Origin: a virus
DNA: 64,000 nt
Reading direction: 5' to 3' (one strand)
Virus record (IMG/VR): IMGVR_UViG_3300042402_002055
Location: 54,407 to 118,406 of that record
Part shown: positions 28,381 to 60,779 of the stretch, one piece after another
Position numbering within the stretch: the stretch's first letter is position 1
How the letters are laid out: each line of letters begins with the position of its first letter
Made by a program: the position numbers and the translations under genes
The notes under the pieces: generated by a model
Seen by the model: only the letters and a program-made list of their open reading frames with translations
Told to the model about the DNA's origin: nothing
The model's database searches: none

Positions 28381-28791
28381 ATGGCATATAGTGATAAAGT
28401 CTTAGACCATTATTCCAACCCAAAAAATGTTGGAACTTTGGACAAATCTAAACAAAATGTAGGAACAGGATTAGTGGGTGCTCCAGAATGTGGTGATGTG
28501 ATGAGATTGCAATTGGAAATCAATGATGGTGTCATAACAGATGCAAAGTTTAAAACATTTGGATGTGGTTCTGCAATCGCAGCATCATCTTTGGCAACGG
28601 AATGGTTGAAAGGTAAGAGTGTGGAAGACGCTGCCAAATTAGATAATATGGATTTGGTTGAAGAATTAAATCTACCACCTGTTAAAATACATTGTTCAGT
28701 ATTGGCACAAGATGCAGTTCAAGCTGCAATCAATGATTATAGAGTAAAAAATGGTGAAACTCCATTAGTATTCGAAGAAAGTCATATATAA
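28381..28791 (+). CDS. iscU: Fe-S cluster scaffold IscU
   Basis: A 136-residue complete IscU. The three cluster-binding cysteines are in APECGD near residue 37, FGCGSAIA near 63 and KIHCSVLA near 104. LPPVK at 99-103 is the recognition motif for the chaperone HscA, so the phage protein should dock with the host HscA/HscB cycle. No phage cysteine desulfurase is visible, so sulfur must come from the host. Paired with an A-type carrier just downstream. Confidence 0.94.
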   Translation: MAYSDKVLDHYSNPKNVGTLDKSKQNVGTGLVGAPECGDVMRLQLEINDGVITDAKFKTFGCGSAIAASSLATEWLKGKSVEDAAKLDNMDLVEELNLPPVKIHCSVLAQDAVQAAINDYRVKNGETPLVFEESHI

Positions 28792-29637: not shown

Positions 29638-32600
29638 ATGAAGAAGGCGATTTTATCGTTGTTCCTTTCGGTATCAGTTTTAATGGGATTTGGTCAAGTA
29701 ACCACTTCCACTATTTCTGGTGTTGTTAAGAACGAAAAACAAGAGGTGTTAGTAGGTGCAACAATTCACGCAACCCACACACCAACAGGTACTCAGTACA
29801 AATCAGTTACAAACAAGAATGGTGTTTATGTATTACCTGCAGTAAGAGTAGGTGGCCCATACACAATCCACGCTTCGTATGTAGGTTTTAGAAAAGGTGA
29901 AGAGAAAGATGTAAACACTCAATTAGGTGTGACATCAAATGTGGACTTTAAATTAGTAGGTGAAAGCACTTCATTAAAAGAAGTAGTTGTAACGGGTACT
30001 AAATCTGGTCTATTCTCAAAAGAGAAAACAGGAGCAGCACAACAATTCACTCGTAGAGAATTACAAACTATTCCAATTACGGGTGCAAGAACTATCGATG
30101 GGATTACAAAGTATAACCCATTCGGTAATGGTAATTCATTCGGAGCACAAGACTCTCGTATGAATAACTTTACAATTGATGGTTCTCAATTCAATAACAA
30201 TTTCGGTTTAGGTTCATCTGCACAAGCGGGTGGTAGAACCGGAGCAAGTGCAATTTCATTGGATGCGATTGACCAATTACAGGTTAACGTAGCTCCATTT
30301 GATATTCGTCAGTCTGGGTTTACTGGTGCAGGTATCAATGCGGTAACAAGAAGTGGTACAAATGAAATTGAAGGTTCGGCATATCAAACACAAAGAGATA
30401 ATAGTTCTCGTTATGTTGGTGATAATGCAAGAGGAACAAAAGTAACTGCATCTAAATTTGATGAGAAGGTACAAGGTTTCCGTTTAGGAGCACCAATCAT
30501 TAAGAACAAATTATTTATCTTTGGTAACTACGAATCAATTGAGAAAACTGAACCAGGTACAACTTGGATTTCATCAGGTTCTCCTTTAACCGGTTCACAA
30601 GTAAGTAGACCAACTTTCCAACAATTAACTGACCTTTCTAAATTTATGAAAGATAAGTTTAATTACGAAACAGGTCCATTTGAAGGATATTCTAATACCA
30701 ACACATCTAATAAATTTTTAGTTCGTGTTGATTGGAATATTAACGATAAGAACAAATTAACTGCTCGTTATGTATACCATAATTCAGAAGCACAAATTGG
30801 TATTTCAAATTCACAATCTGCAGGTTTTGGTAATAGAACGCAAAACATCAACGCAATGTCTTTCCAAAATAGTGGATATACTATTCAGGATAACACTCGT
30901 TCGGCAGTATTAGAATTAAACTCTAAGATTTCAAATACATTATACAATAACTTAATTGTATCGTATGATAAACAAATTGAGAACAGAGGTTATTTATCTC
31001 AAATGTTCCCAACGATTGACATTAAAGAAGGTTCTACTACATTAACATCAGTAGGATTTGACCCATTCACTCCAGGAAACAAATTAGACTACTCTACAAT
31101 CAATGTTACTAATAACTTAACAAAGTATTTAGGTAAACATACAATCGTAAGTGGTTTCAATTTCCAAAGTTATGAATCTAATAACTTATTCTTCCCAGCA
31201 TCAAATGGTGTTTATATTTTCAATAGCTTAGCTGATTTCTATACTGCAGCTAATCAATCATTAGCAAATGGTGGTAAACCATCTGCGTTTGCACCAGCTC
31301 GTTTCCAATTCCGTTATTCGGCGTTGCCAGGAGCAATTGAACCAATGCAAACTTTAAAATCTTATAGAACTGATTTATATTTACAAGACGAATATAACGC
31401 AACTAAAGATTTAAAATTGACTTTTGGTATTAGAGCAAACATTATTGATTTTGAAAACAGCGCATTAGAAAATCCAGCAATCACTGCGATGACTTTTGCG
31501 AATGGTGAAAAATGGAATACAGGTGTAATGCCTAAGACTCAAGTTCTATTTGAACCAAGATTAGGTTTCAACTATGATTTAAAAGGTGAAAAGAAAACTC
31601 AATTTAGAGGTGGAACAGGCGTATTCACAGGTCGTCCTCCTTATGTATTTTTATCGAATCAAATCGGTAACAATGGAGTGTTAACTGGATTTATCGATGT
31701 AAGTGGTACTGCAGCTGCACCTTATGGTTTCACTGCTGACCCTAACAAATACTTCATTCCTTCAACTCCAACATTACCTTCAACATTTGATTTAGCATTA
31801 ACAGACCCTAACTACAAATTCCCACAAGTTTGGAAAACCAATTTGGCAGTAGACCAAAAGTTACCATTCTTCGGATTAGTAGCAACGGCAGAATACTTAT
31901 ACAACAAAACAATAAACGCAGTTCATTACTATGAAGCTAACCTAAGAAATCCAGTAGGAACTTTGGGTGGTGTAGATAACAGACCTCGTTTCGGTGGAAG
32001 TGATGCAACTGTAAGAGTAAATAACAATGTGAGTAGAGCAGCAGTTCTTACGAGTAAGAATGGTGCATACCACGAATCATTGACATTGAAATTAGAGAAA
32101 CCATATCAAAAAGGTTTCTGGGGTTCATTCGCTTGGACAACTGCTAACTCAAAAGACTTTATGAGTGCAGGTTCAATCGCTAGTGGTAGTTGGCAATCAG
32201 CATTATCAGTTAATGGTAATAACGATTTAGGATTATCATTTGCAGACGCATTTGTTAAAAATAGATTCGTAGGTTTATTAGGATATAGAATTGAATATGG
32301 TTCTAAATATGGTGGAGCAACTACATTTACATTAGGATATGTGGGACAACAAGGTAATCCATATTCTTATATCGCAGCAGGTGACTTGAATGGTGATAGA
32401 GTAAACAACAACGATTTAATTTTCGTTCCAATGAAAGGCTCTGACATCAAATTTGCAAGTTTAACTGCAGGTGGTAAAACATTTACTGAAGCTGACCAAC
32501 AAGCTGCATTTGATAAGTTTATCGGACAAGATAAATACTTATCAACTCGTAGAGGTCAATACGCTGAAAGAAATGGTGGTTTATTACCTTACTTACATAG

Positions 32601-32916
32601 ATTTGATTTATCAGTAGCACAAGATGTATTTGTTAAGATTGGTGGAAAGAGAAATGCTTTCCAAATCAGAGCAGATATCTTAAACTTTGGTAATATGGTT
32701 GATAATAAGTTTGGTATTTCACAAAGAGCTACGGCACCTCAAATTTTGAACTTTGTAAGCAGAGATGCAGTTACAAATGTTCCAACATTTAGATTGGCAA
32801 CACAAAGATTAACAGATGGTTCTACTATTTTAGCTAGAGATAGTTATCAGTATAACTCATCGGTATTCGATGTATGGTCTGCACAATTAGGTATCCGTTA
32901 CATCTTCGGTAAATAA
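29638..32916 (+). CDS. TonB-dependent outer-membrane receptor (Oar-like)
   Basis: A 1092-residue outer-membrane receptor. Residues 1-19 are a signal peptide (KKAILSLFLSVSVLMGFGQ), 22-110 a carboxypeptidase-regulatory-like beta domain (GVVKNEKQEVLVGATI), then a TonB-box-like LKEVVVTGT and a plug (ELQTIPITGARTIDG). The rest is a beta-barrel ending SAQLGIRYIFGK. This matches Oar-type TonB-dependent transporters of Bacteroidota, full length. Such a gene is highly unusual in a phage. Expression would alter the host surface (nutrient uptake or superinfection exclusion). No promoter of the TTTGG class is evident between the upstream terminator and the start. Confidence 0.88.
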   Translation: MKKAILSLFLSVSVLMGFGQVTTSTISGVVKNEKQEVLVGATIHATHTPTGTQYKSVTNKNGVYVLPAVRVGGPYTIHASYVGFRKGEEKDVNTQLGVTSNVDFKLVGESTSLKEVVVTGTKSGLFSKEKTGAAQQFTRRELQTIPITGARTIDGITKYNPFGNGNSFGAQDSRMNNFTIDGSQFNNNFGLGSSAQAGGRTGASAISLDAIDQLQVNVAPFDIRQSGFTGAGINAVTRSGTNEIEGSAYQTQRDNSSRYVGDNARGTKVTASKFDEKVQGFRLGAPIIKNKLFIFGNYESIEKTEPGTTWISSGSPLTGSQVSRPTFQQLTDLSKFMKDKFNYETGPFEGYSNTNTSNKFLVRVDWNINDKNKLTARYVYHNSEAQIGISNSQSAGFGNRTQNINAMSFQNSGYTIQDNTRSAVLELNSKISNTLYNNLIVSYDKQIENRGYLSQMFPTIDIKEGSTTLTSVGFDPFTPGNKLDYSTINVTNNLTKYLGKHTIVSGFNFQSYESNNLFFPASNGVYIFNSLADFYTAANQSLANGGKPSAFAPARFQFRYSALPGAIEPMQTLKSYRTDLYLQDEYNATKDLKLTFGIRANIIDFENSALENPAITAMTFANGEKWNTGVMPKTQVLFEPRLGFNYDLKGEKKTQFRGGTGVFTGRPPYVFLSNQIGNNGVLTGFIDVSGTAAAPYGFTADPNKYFIPSTPTLPSTFDLALTDPNYKFPQVWKTNLAVDQKLPFFGLVATAEYLYNKTINAVHYYEANLRNPVGTLGGVDNRPRFGGSDATVRVNNNVSRAAVLTSKNGAYHESLTLKLEKPYQKGFWGSFAWTTANSKDFMSAGSIASGSWQSALSVNGNNDLGLSFADAFVKNRFVGLLGYRIEYGSKYGGATTFTLGYVGQQGNPYSYIAAGDLNGDRVNNNDLIFVPMKGSDIKFASLTAGGKTFTEADQQAAFDKFIGQDKYLSTRRGQYAERNGGLLPYLHRFDLSVAQDVFVKIGGKRNAFQIRADILNFGNMVDNKFGISQRATAPQILNFVSRDAVTNVPTFRLATQRLTDGSTILARDSYQYNSSVFDVWSAQLGIRYIFGK

Positions 32917-33028: not shown

Positions 33029-34651
<1,623 letters not shown>

Positions 34652-52229: not shown

Positions 52230-52615
52230 GGGGATGCTTTGGAATTGATTGCAATGCAAATAGTAGTACCACACGTAGAGGTAAGTGATAGAAACTCTTT
52301 AAAACTGCACAAAACAATAACTGACGAAAAGTCAACTATGACTTACAACGACTTAATGGCGTTTGTAGGTATGGATTACGCTGTAGCAGCCTAACCAATC
52401 CCGTACACATCATGGGACTTTAAATAGAATGTGAAATACGGGCCACAGGTCGGAGCCCATTTAAAATAATTTCGAGACCAGGTTCTTTGGAAGTTTGTTT
52501 CCCACACACATCAAACTTTATATTTTGTCAATTAAGAAAAATTGAATAAACGTGTGAAATGCTGGTATTATTAGTTCTTTGTAAGACACGGGTTCGATTC
52601 CCGTCATCTCCACCA
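52230..52615 (+). ncRNA. ssrA: Transfer-messenger RNA (tmRNA)
   Basis: A 386-nt RNA. The acceptor stem GGGGATG (230-236) pairs with CATCTCC (605-611) and includes the G3-U70 wobble that marks alanine charging. The T arm is 588-604 with loop TTCGATT, and CCA is encoded (613-615). An internal reading frame ends GATTACGCTGTAGCAGCC then TAA at 392-394. If the resume codon is GCG at 359 (preceded by TAATG, with A at -4) the tag is AFVGMDYAVAA; an ATG at 371 is the alternative. It rescues stalled ribosomes and tags products for degradation. The tag end YAVAA differs from the usual YALAA. Confidence 0.95.
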
Positions 52616-56546: not shown

Positions 56547-56631
56547 AGAGAGTTGGCCGAGCGGTTGATGGCACCAGTCTTGAAAACTGGCAAGTGTAAA
56601 AGCTTCTGGGGTTCGAATCCCTAACTCTCTG
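56547..56631 (+). tRNA. tRNA-Ser (TGA)
   Basis: Type II cloverleaf, acceptor AGAGAGT/ACTCTCT, anticodon stem CCAGT/ACTGG around CTTGAAA, long variable arm. Located after a protein gene on the same transcript. Confidence 0.95.
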
Positions 56632-56645
56632 CAAAAACAAAAGTT

Positions 56646-57164
56646 ATGACACTAAAAGAAGCAACTGCCGAATTACATAGTAAGGCAGAAAAGATGGATT
56701 TTAATCAAAGAATGTTTGCGGGTAAATTGAGTAATGATGAATACTTAAATTATCTAATTCAACAATCTTACATTTTCCAAGAAATAGAAAATAGAAATTT
56801 ACCGCATCCAAATTTACAAAGATTAAGTTCAATCAATGAAGATATAAATGAATTGGGTGGATATAAATTTAAGATAAGCAAACCAACAACCGATTATGTT
56901 GTTTATTTGGGTGACTTAAATCAGTCAAACTTAAATGCACACATCTATCTTAATTACTTAGCTATTATGTTTGGTGGACAAATGATGAAATCAAAAGTTC
57001 CAGGTAGTGGTAAGATGTATGACTTTGAAGGTGACATGAGAGAATTGATTGGTAGTGTTAGAGCAATTCAAAATGATGGAATGGCCGACGAAGTAAATAA
57101 AGGTTTTATATTTATCATAAACATATTAGATGAATTACAAAGAAACTCTGGACAAACTATCTAA
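56646..57164 (+). CDS. Heme oxygenase-like protein
   Basis: A 172-residue all-helical protein. It opens LKEATAELHSKAEKMDFNQRM, where His 11 matches the proximal heme ligand of heme oxygenases. AHIYLNYLAIMFGGQMM near 104-120 matches the distal helix (HxYxRYLGxLxGGQ). It would open heme to biliverdin, CO and Fe2+ using ferredoxin electrons. Shorter than cyanobacterial HO1 (about 240) but similar to compact phage versions. Its end overlaps the bilin reductase-like gene by 35 bases. Confidence 0.8.
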   Translation: MTLKEATAELHSKAEKMDFNQRMFAGKLSNDEYLNYLIQQSYIFQEIENRNLPHPNLQRLSSINEDINELGGYKFKISKPTTDYVVYLGDLNQSNLNAHIYLNYLAIMFGGQMMKSKVPGSGKMYDFEGDMRELIGSVRAIQNDGMADEVNKGFIFIINILDELQRNSGQTI

Positions 57165-57762
57165 TGATATCCAATGGTTGATTTATCAGTTAGCAGATGG
57201 TGTTAAAATCGAAACGGAAGATTTTGGTTGGGACAATCGTAGATACGCATCAAATCGATTTAGAATGGCACACATTGAAAGATATTCCGATTCAAATTTA
57301 GAAGTATTACACTTTACTTGTTTTCCTACAAAATACTCACAATTGCCAATATTTGGATGTGATATAATTACAACCGATAAAAAACCATTGGCAGCATTTA
57401 TGGATTGGTCACCTGTTGATTCTGCATTAGAAATGACTATGACACATCAATTTGAAAAACCATATCCATTACCTGATTGGGCTAAGATTATATTTTCACC
57501 AACAGCATTGGCAATTGTCCCATCGGATAATGAAATGGAAAAATTAACGGAAGTAATATTACAAAGTTTTAAAACATATATTTCTTTATTGGGTAGTAGT
57601 AAAGATAAAAGTGAAAGAGTTGATTATATAATAGCAGCACAAAATCGATATTGTGAAAATCAACAAAAGAACGAAAGAACTTATAATGTATTGAAAGCAA
57701 AATTAGGAAAAGAAAGAGCTAAATACTTTATGGAAACAATCCTATTCCCGAAGATAGATTAA
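57130..57762 (+). CDS. Ferredoxin-dependent bilin reductase-like protein
   Basis: A 210-residue protein with RFRMAHIERYSDSNLEVLHFTCFP near residues 43-66 and SQLPIFGCDIITTDKKPLAAFMDWSPV near 70-96. The RxxHxE, FP...LPIFGxD and xDxxPV blocks are those of FDBRs (PcyA, PebS, PcyX), which reduce biliverdin to phycobilins. Immediately downstream of the heme oxygenase-like gene, as in phage ho-pebS and ho-pcyX pairs. Which bilin is made cannot be read from sequence. Confidence 0.82.
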   Translation: MNYKETLDKLSNDIQWLIYQLADGVKIETEDFGWDNRRYASNRFRMAHIERYSDSNLEVLHFTCFPTKYSQLPIFGCDIITTDKKPLAAFMDWSPVDSALEMTMTHQFEKPYPLPDWAKIIFSPTALAIVPSDNEMEKLTEVILQSFKTYISLLGSSKDKSERVDYIIAAQNRYCENQQKNERTYNVLKAKLGKERAKYFMETILFPKID

Positions 57763-57796
57763 CATATATAAAAAAATAATATATATAACACATTGA

Positions 57797-57840
57797 CCCC
57801 AATGTTACTAAAAATAGTTTTGGTAATTTGGGGTTTTTTT
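57797..57840 (+). terminator. Intrinsic terminator overlapping a promoter
   Basis: CCCCAA (797-802) pairs with TTGGGG (828-833) and TTACTAAAA (805-813) with TTTTGGTAA (818-826), then seven T. The 3' arm contains the TTTGGTAA -33 box of the next promoter. Confidence 0.88.
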
Positions 57841-57850
57841 CGTATCTTAC
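57819..57850 (+). promoter_or_regulatory. Phage promoter embedded in terminator
   Basis: TTTGGTAA at 57819 and TCGTATCTTA with TATCTTA at 57843, offset 24. The terminator T tract fills the spacer. Confidence 0.8.
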
Positions 57851-60296: not shown

Positions 60297-60779
60297 ATGA
60301 AACAAAAAGAAAACTTAATAATACTTTTTATTTTAATTGCGGTTTGGTTTAGATTGATACCACATTTACCTAATTTTACACCTGTGACTGCATTGGCTTT
60401 ATTTTCAGGTTTAATGTTGAAAAGAAAATGGTTGAGTATTGGTATTCCATTAGTTGCAATGATGGTATCGGACTTAGTTTTAGGATTTAGTGCAATATCA
60501 ATTTGGGTATATTTGGGATTTGCATCAATTACAATTATTGGATGGTTTTTAGATAAAATGAATGCAAAGTCAATTTTATTGTCATCTTTAATATTTTTTA
60601 TAGTTTCAAATTTTGGAGCATGGTTAATTGGATATCCACACACAATTGAAGGTTTAATGATGTGTTATACATTAGCAATACCATTTTTTGGATATTCTAT
60701 TTTAGGTGATTTATTTTGGGGATATACATTTAAACATTCTTATAAGTTTATAGAAAGTAAATTTTTAAAAGTAGCATAA
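60297..60779 (+). CDS. DUF6580-like integral membrane protein
   Basis: A 160-residue protein with five or six hydrophobic helices. WFRLIPHLPNFTPVTALALFSG near residue 17 and MMVSDLVLGFS near 56 match what I recall of DUF6580, which is related to ECF-transporter-like membrane proteins of Bacteroidota. Substrate unknown. Unusual as a phage gene. Confidence 0.7.
   Translation: MKQKENLIILFILIAVWFRLIPHLPNFTPVTALALFSGLMLKRKWLSIGIPLVAMMVSDLVLGFSAISIWVYLGFASITIIGWFLDKMNAKSILLSSLIFFIVSNFGAWLIGYPHTIEGLMMCYTLAIPFFGYSILGDLFWGYTFKHSYKFIESKFLKVA

Follow-up and report, generated by a model that had tools for sequence, protein, structure and literature searches.

A predicted heme oxygenase and bilin reductase cassette in a T4-like phage of Bacteroidota type

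Why would a phage of a non-photosynthetic bacterium carry adjacent genes resembling a heme oxygenase (HO) and a ferredoxin-dependent bilin reductase (FDBR)? The question arises from two genes in the window, the whole 64,000-nucleotide stretch of DNA analysed here, which is one part of a virus record of 118,406 bases. Phage HO-FDBR cassettes are already known, both with PcyX and, in phage CB_2, with PcyA (PMC11480375), and the purpose of such pairs in phages of heterotrophs has been called enigmatic (PMC11480375). We consider it probable that the present pair serves as an auxiliary metabolic cassette, borne by a T4-like myovirus that infects Bacteroidota (probably Chitinophagales), and would convert heme to biliverdin IX-alpha and then to phycocyanobilin.

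Table 1. Features of the cassette and other genes of the window discussed in the text (window coordinates)
Feature	Position	Strand	Description
HO ORF	56646-57164	+	172 aa; short predicted heme oxygenase
FDBR ORF	57130-57762	+	210 aa; predicted ferredoxin-dependent bilin reductase
HO/FDBR frame overlap	57130-57164	+	35 nt
tRNA-Ser(TGA)	56547-56632	+	ARAGORN; ends 13 nt upstream of HO start, last in tRNA cluster
Intrinsic terminator candidate	57795-57841	+	18-bp hairpin then T run, 32 nt 3' of FDBR stop
IscU/NifU_N scaffold protein	28381-28791		
Outer-membrane receptor-like protein	29638-32916		1092 aa; CarboxypepD_reg + OMP_b-brl_4
GroEL	33032-34651		
tmRNA	52230-52615		long unusual tag peptide
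DUF6580 membrane protein	60297-60779		E=4e-45

The overlapping frames of the two genes (Table 1) are probably coupled in translation, and the pair may share a transcript with the tRNA-Ser gene that precedes it. The downstream hairpin is the probable intrinsic terminator of the pair: its folding energy is -19.5 kcal/mol (z -4.55), equal stability was reached in 0 of 200 shuffles, and a simple scan did not pick it up. In the surrounding region, 17 tRNAs occupy the stretch between the tmRNA gene and the HO gene, and the DUF6580 membrane protein is phage-borne. GroEL is encoded elsewhere in the window; in the relatives L014-L017, GroES/GroEL lie downstream of the HO-FDBR pair.

Relatives of the cassette were collected by IMG/VR scans for close FDBR relatives and for HO relatives, 71 loci coming from the alignment query. 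Of 81 window-type loci, among which some contigs are counted more than once, 79 have both HO and FDBR; in the two exceptions, L253 and L264, the pair lies at or near a contig end, so that 79 of 79 untruncated loci carry it. The pairing described in the initial annotation is supported. The frames overlap in 78 of these 79 loci, by 1-68 nt, while the remaining locus has a 253-nt gap. The most frequent other neighbour of the pair is found in only 16 of 56 loci, and nothing else nearby is widely conserved. Both genes are under purifying selection, with dN/dS values of 0.13-0.32 for HO and 0.21-0.41 for FDBR. Identity to L003 reaches 91% for HO and 67% for FDBR, compared with 60% and 70%, respectively, to L002; these differing histories make recombination near the HO/FDBR junction likely, the pair nonetheless being kept together.

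Profile searches place both proteins inside their families, in line with what had been proposed from their sequence patterns. The first exceeds the curated cut-off of Pfam Heme_oxygenase (PF01126; 55.3 bits against 23, E=1e-14), and its sequence matches in the PDB are heme oxygenases. Its AlphaFold (AF2) model (pLDDT 92.7) has the all-helical HO fold, and the best 50 Foldseek matches are all heme oxygenases (TMq about 0.8). The proximal His and GGQ patterns noted earlier correspond to His11 and residues 110-112, accompanied by the conserved Arg139, and His11, Glu15, G110 and G111 are invariant in 56 of 56 HO sequences of the group. By family and fold the protein is thus a heme oxygenase, with predicted activity.

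The second protein matches Pfam Fe_bilin_red (PF05996) at 99.7 bits against a cut-off of 31 (E=2.6e-28), and its sequence matches in the PDB are PcyA and PcyX. The AF2 model (pLDDT 93.6) forms an alpha/beta/alpha sandwich whose best Foldseek match is Nostoc PcyA 2g18 (TMq 0.86-0.87). The HIER, LPIFGxD and DWSPV blocks reported in the initial annotation are real: the first holds H48 and E50, the second D78 and the third D92. His48, Glu50, His61, Asp92 and Asn181 correspond to PcyA His74, Glu76, His88, Asp105 and Asn219, and Glu76, His88 and Asp105 are critical in PcyA (PMC10151467). Across the group, His48, His61, Asp92 and Asn181 are present in 56 of 56 FDBRs and Glu50 in 55 of 56. A pre-PcyA identity was ruled out, since those enzymes have neither Glu76 nor His88 (Asn/Thr replacing His88 in pre-2/pre-3) and Glu50 and His61 are present here. 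The model and residues identify a predicted ferredoxin-dependent bilin reductase with a PcyA-type active site, and because the PcyA catalytic set is present and PcyX Asp55 absent, the predicted product is phycocyanobilin.

The predicted host phylum, Bacteroidota, is well supported, and the host order is probably Chitinophagales. The phage carries a family-B DNA polymerase, a clamp loader and a tail sheath, on which grounds we regard it as a T4-like myovirus. Its IscU protein is 82% identical to Chitinophagaceae sequences, and the receptor-like protein shows at most 40% identity to Chitinophagales. Leaders in this phage are A-rich with no Shine-Dalgarno signal: the rate of Shine-Dalgarno-like motifs is 0.06 versus 0.07 expected from shuffling, and 0.09 versus 0.07 in the clade, while the basal, L019 and PcyX groups have more of such motifs than expected. 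Bacteroidota are naturally without Shine-Dalgarno sequences (PMC6847099). The Bacteroidota promoter motif TAnnTTTG was not significantly enriched (35 of 300 simulations were as high). The earlier description of a Bacteroidota-type phage is upheld by the missing Shine-Dalgarno excess together with the Chitinophagaceae-like IscU and the Chitinophagales-like receptor.

In the proposed mechanism, HO would open heme to yield biliverdin IX-alpha, CO and iron, and FDBR would then carry out a four-electron reduction of biliverdin to phycocyanobilin. Host ferredoxin is the presumed electron donor, because the 43 FDBR phage records, many of them fragments, contain no 2Fe-2S ferredoxin gene. A Flavodoxin_2 / NAD(P)H reductase-like gene lies near the pair in several relatives (L010, 7227-7793; L252, 2592-3173), and the Flavodoxin_2 protein is a possible donor in L010 and a few others. 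FDBR was found in 0 of 396 Bacteroidota genomes, so the phage would bring a reaction that its hosts lack. No cellular FDBR relative was confirmed in genome contigs by a 15-sequence alignment query, a weak search with one usable peptide pattern, and the plasmid search returned only a cyanobacterial PebB. Since FDBR is retained in every locus that keeps HO, selection must act on an outcome that involves either the reduced bilin or the clearance of biliverdin. The best-supported chemistry runs from heme through biliverdin to phycocyanobilin; as to its use, we see about equal odds for heme turnover, in which biliverdin would be drawn off HO and disposed of, and for a chromophore role, in which a host phytochrome would be loaded or overridden.

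An exclusive role in iron and heme turnover, in which HO would free iron for phage-directed metabolism and FDBR would just clear biliverdin, is a tentative but serious possibility. It agrees with the presence of IscU and of a 2OG-Fe(II) oxygenase-like gene in the phage, and an iron role has been suggested for other phages too (PMC11480375). The product-setting residue also varies between phage clades (Glu or Asp), which suggests that no single receptor dictates which bilin is made. HO alone, however, suffices to free iron, and the strict retention of FDBR with it therefore argues against iron release alone. The association with IscU is likewise unspecific. IscU occurs in 10 of 43 FDBR phages versus 17 of 50,697 phage records, and a wider scan of IMG/VR found at least 585 viral stretches encoding close IscU relatives; of 38 IscU contigs tested, just 6 carry FDBR, and a specific IscU-FDBR link was therefore dropped.

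We think it slightly less likely that phage phycocyanobilin loads host bacteriophytochromes and thereby alters the light response during infection. The candidate order was sampled by 199 genomes, of which 25 (~12%) have a phytochrome domain and 26 an HO, the two lying within 3 kb of each other in 17 genomes by manual position comparison. Nevertheless, about 87% of the sampled genomes of the order are without phytochrome, most are without both HO and phytochrome, and none of the 43 FDBR phage records, many of them fragments, contains a phytochrome. Bacteriophytochromes normally use biliverdin, which also speaks against this role. In its favor, the CB_2 HO and FDBR gave functional Cph1 in E. coli (PMC11480375). 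A more far-reaching version, in which this Bacteroidota phage branch makes host-foreign phycocyanobilin and loads bacteriophytochromes with a non-native chromophore, overriding light signalling, seems rather unlikely to us.

The identity of the product was weighed against the history of the enzyme. The FDBR phylogeny that the initial annotation had proposed was built by a quick search with three references present only as PDB fragments, and left out alphaproteobacterial PcyA, CB_2 and pre-PcyA. In this tree, PcyX, the L019 group and the window FDBR share a phage clade that is separate from the PcyA of cyanobacteria and cyanophages (SH-aLRT 99), and grouping the FDBR with that PcyA is rejected (AU p 0.014). 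The FDBR lies outside the PcyX subclade though in the same larger clade (SH-aLRT 99), and PebS, PebA and PebB form an outgroup (SH-aLRT 100) with which it does not group. Monophyly of the window group minus L280 is not rejected (p 0.366). The window clade is a separate, widespread phage branch with its own active-site features.

This placement, together with PcyX being the top scorer for the clade profile, would favor a PcyX-like enzyme that makes phycoerythrobilin by descent. PcyX is known to make phycoerythrobilin; because the tree puts the FDBR with this enzyme, our product assignment is taken from the catalytic residues alone. At the Glu50 column, equated with PcyX Asp55 by alignment counting and an assumed 8-residue tag in the crystallised construct, Asp is found in 58 of 58 PcyX-group sequences and likewise in the L019 group, whereas 55 of 56 window-group sequences have Glu; a PcyX identity by active site was ruled out on this basis. 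L280, the sole sequence of the group without Glu50, sits near PcyX in the tree. Moreover, the CB_2 FDBR, placed between PcyA and PcyX and without Asp55, shows true PcyA activity and makes phycocyanobilin (PMC11480375). A phycoerythrobilin product is for these reasons unlikely, and phycocyanobilin remains our prediction.

Two further groups were seen in the same data. The basal FDBR clade (L270, L271, L274, L276-L278) has the PcyA-type Glu, N, W or P at the HO distal residue and a Shine-Dalgarno signal, and probably represents phages of other phyla. A second divergent PcyX-related group, L109-L135, mostly has an Asp-type FDBR together with an HO in which the distal Asp is missing. A rule coupling HO-Asp to FDBR-Asp was rejected: the L019 group breaks it by pairing non-Asp HO with Asp FDBR, so the coupling is lineage-linked.

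The catalytic Asp and His residues whose loss the initial annotation had flagged as a concern are all kept in the FDBR; in the HO the proximal His stands, whereas the distal Asp is lost. Alignment of the 56 group sequences places Ile107 at the position of HO-1 Asp140 and Asn103 at that of Arg136, so the distal Asp140/Arg136 network, canonical but non-defining for HO, is absent here, and the Asp140 equivalent is present in only 1 of 56. Human and corynebacterial HOs depend on this network, and its absence counts against the predicted activity. The protein could accordingly be a heme-binding or altered-specificity relative and no classical oxygenase, as the loss of the network in nearly the whole group would allow, but we judge this improbable: the proximal His and distal GG are invariant, and the constant partner is an FDBR, which needs biliverdin. 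The loss is also compatible with activity, because plant HOs, which have neither the distal Asp nor the distal Arg, are active by means of a different hydrogen-bond network (PMC7948506). In plant GmHO-1, which likewise has neither residue, His150 and Ala149 are found in contrast to Ile107 here, and the sequences are distant (PMC7948506).

The closest cultured relative is Microcystis phage Mel-JY01 (PP395634.1, L286; DNA polymerase 48%, tail sheath 46%), the tail sheath being also 43% identical to that of Flavobacterium phage immuto. Microcystis uses phycocyanobilin, and this relationship would fit a cyanobacterial, Microcystis-like host in which the pair serves phycobilisomes as in cyanophages, but such a host is very improbable given that Mel-JY01 has a Shine-Dalgarno-like rate of 0.39 versus 0.06 in this phage and no FDBR match, that the IscU and receptor genes are Bacteroidota-like, and that the FDBR lies outside the cyanobacterial/cyanophage clade.

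Among known systems, the marine phage hemO-pcyX cassette (PcyX_EBK42635; Pelagibacter phage Mosig EXVC030M, MT647606) is similar in having HO directly before FDBR with touching or overlapping frames, in the larger clade to which its FDBR belongs and in the non-photosynthetic host of Mosig. It differs in having PcyX Asp55 instead of Glu, an HO of Mosig type that retains the distal GDLSGGQ Asp, Shine-Dalgarno signals, and only 34% (FDBR) and 27% (HO) identity to this pair. The freshwater phage CB_2, compared by its published description only, shares an HO (vHemO) with a PcyA-type FDBR (vPcyA), a proposed non-photosynthetic host and the absence of Asp55; its enzymes were shown to make biliverdin and phycocyanobilin, whereas its proposed host is Methylocystis and its cassette is broken, with alaS (PMC11480375). 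Cyanobacterial PcyA (2g18, 2d1e) and cyanophage pcyA share the fold and the catalytic Glu/His/Asp/Asn set, but form a separate clade with about 28% identity and light-harvesting hosts. Similarly, pre-PcyA of heterotrophic bacteria (PMC10151467) is an FDBR outside photosynthesis with HO often nearby; unlike the present enzyme, it is without PcyA His88/Glu76, and no globin or V4R neighbours were noticed here. Full-text searches of the open-access literature turned up no paper describing an HO-FDBR pair in a Bacteroidota phage.

If its enzymes act as predicted, this cassette would show phages making bilins in a phylum that does not photosynthesise and whose sampled genomes contain no FDBR. It also presents a PcyA-type active site within what may be the PcyX lineage, where the switch between phycocyanobilin and phycoerythrobilin may be tested at a single residue (Glu/Asp).
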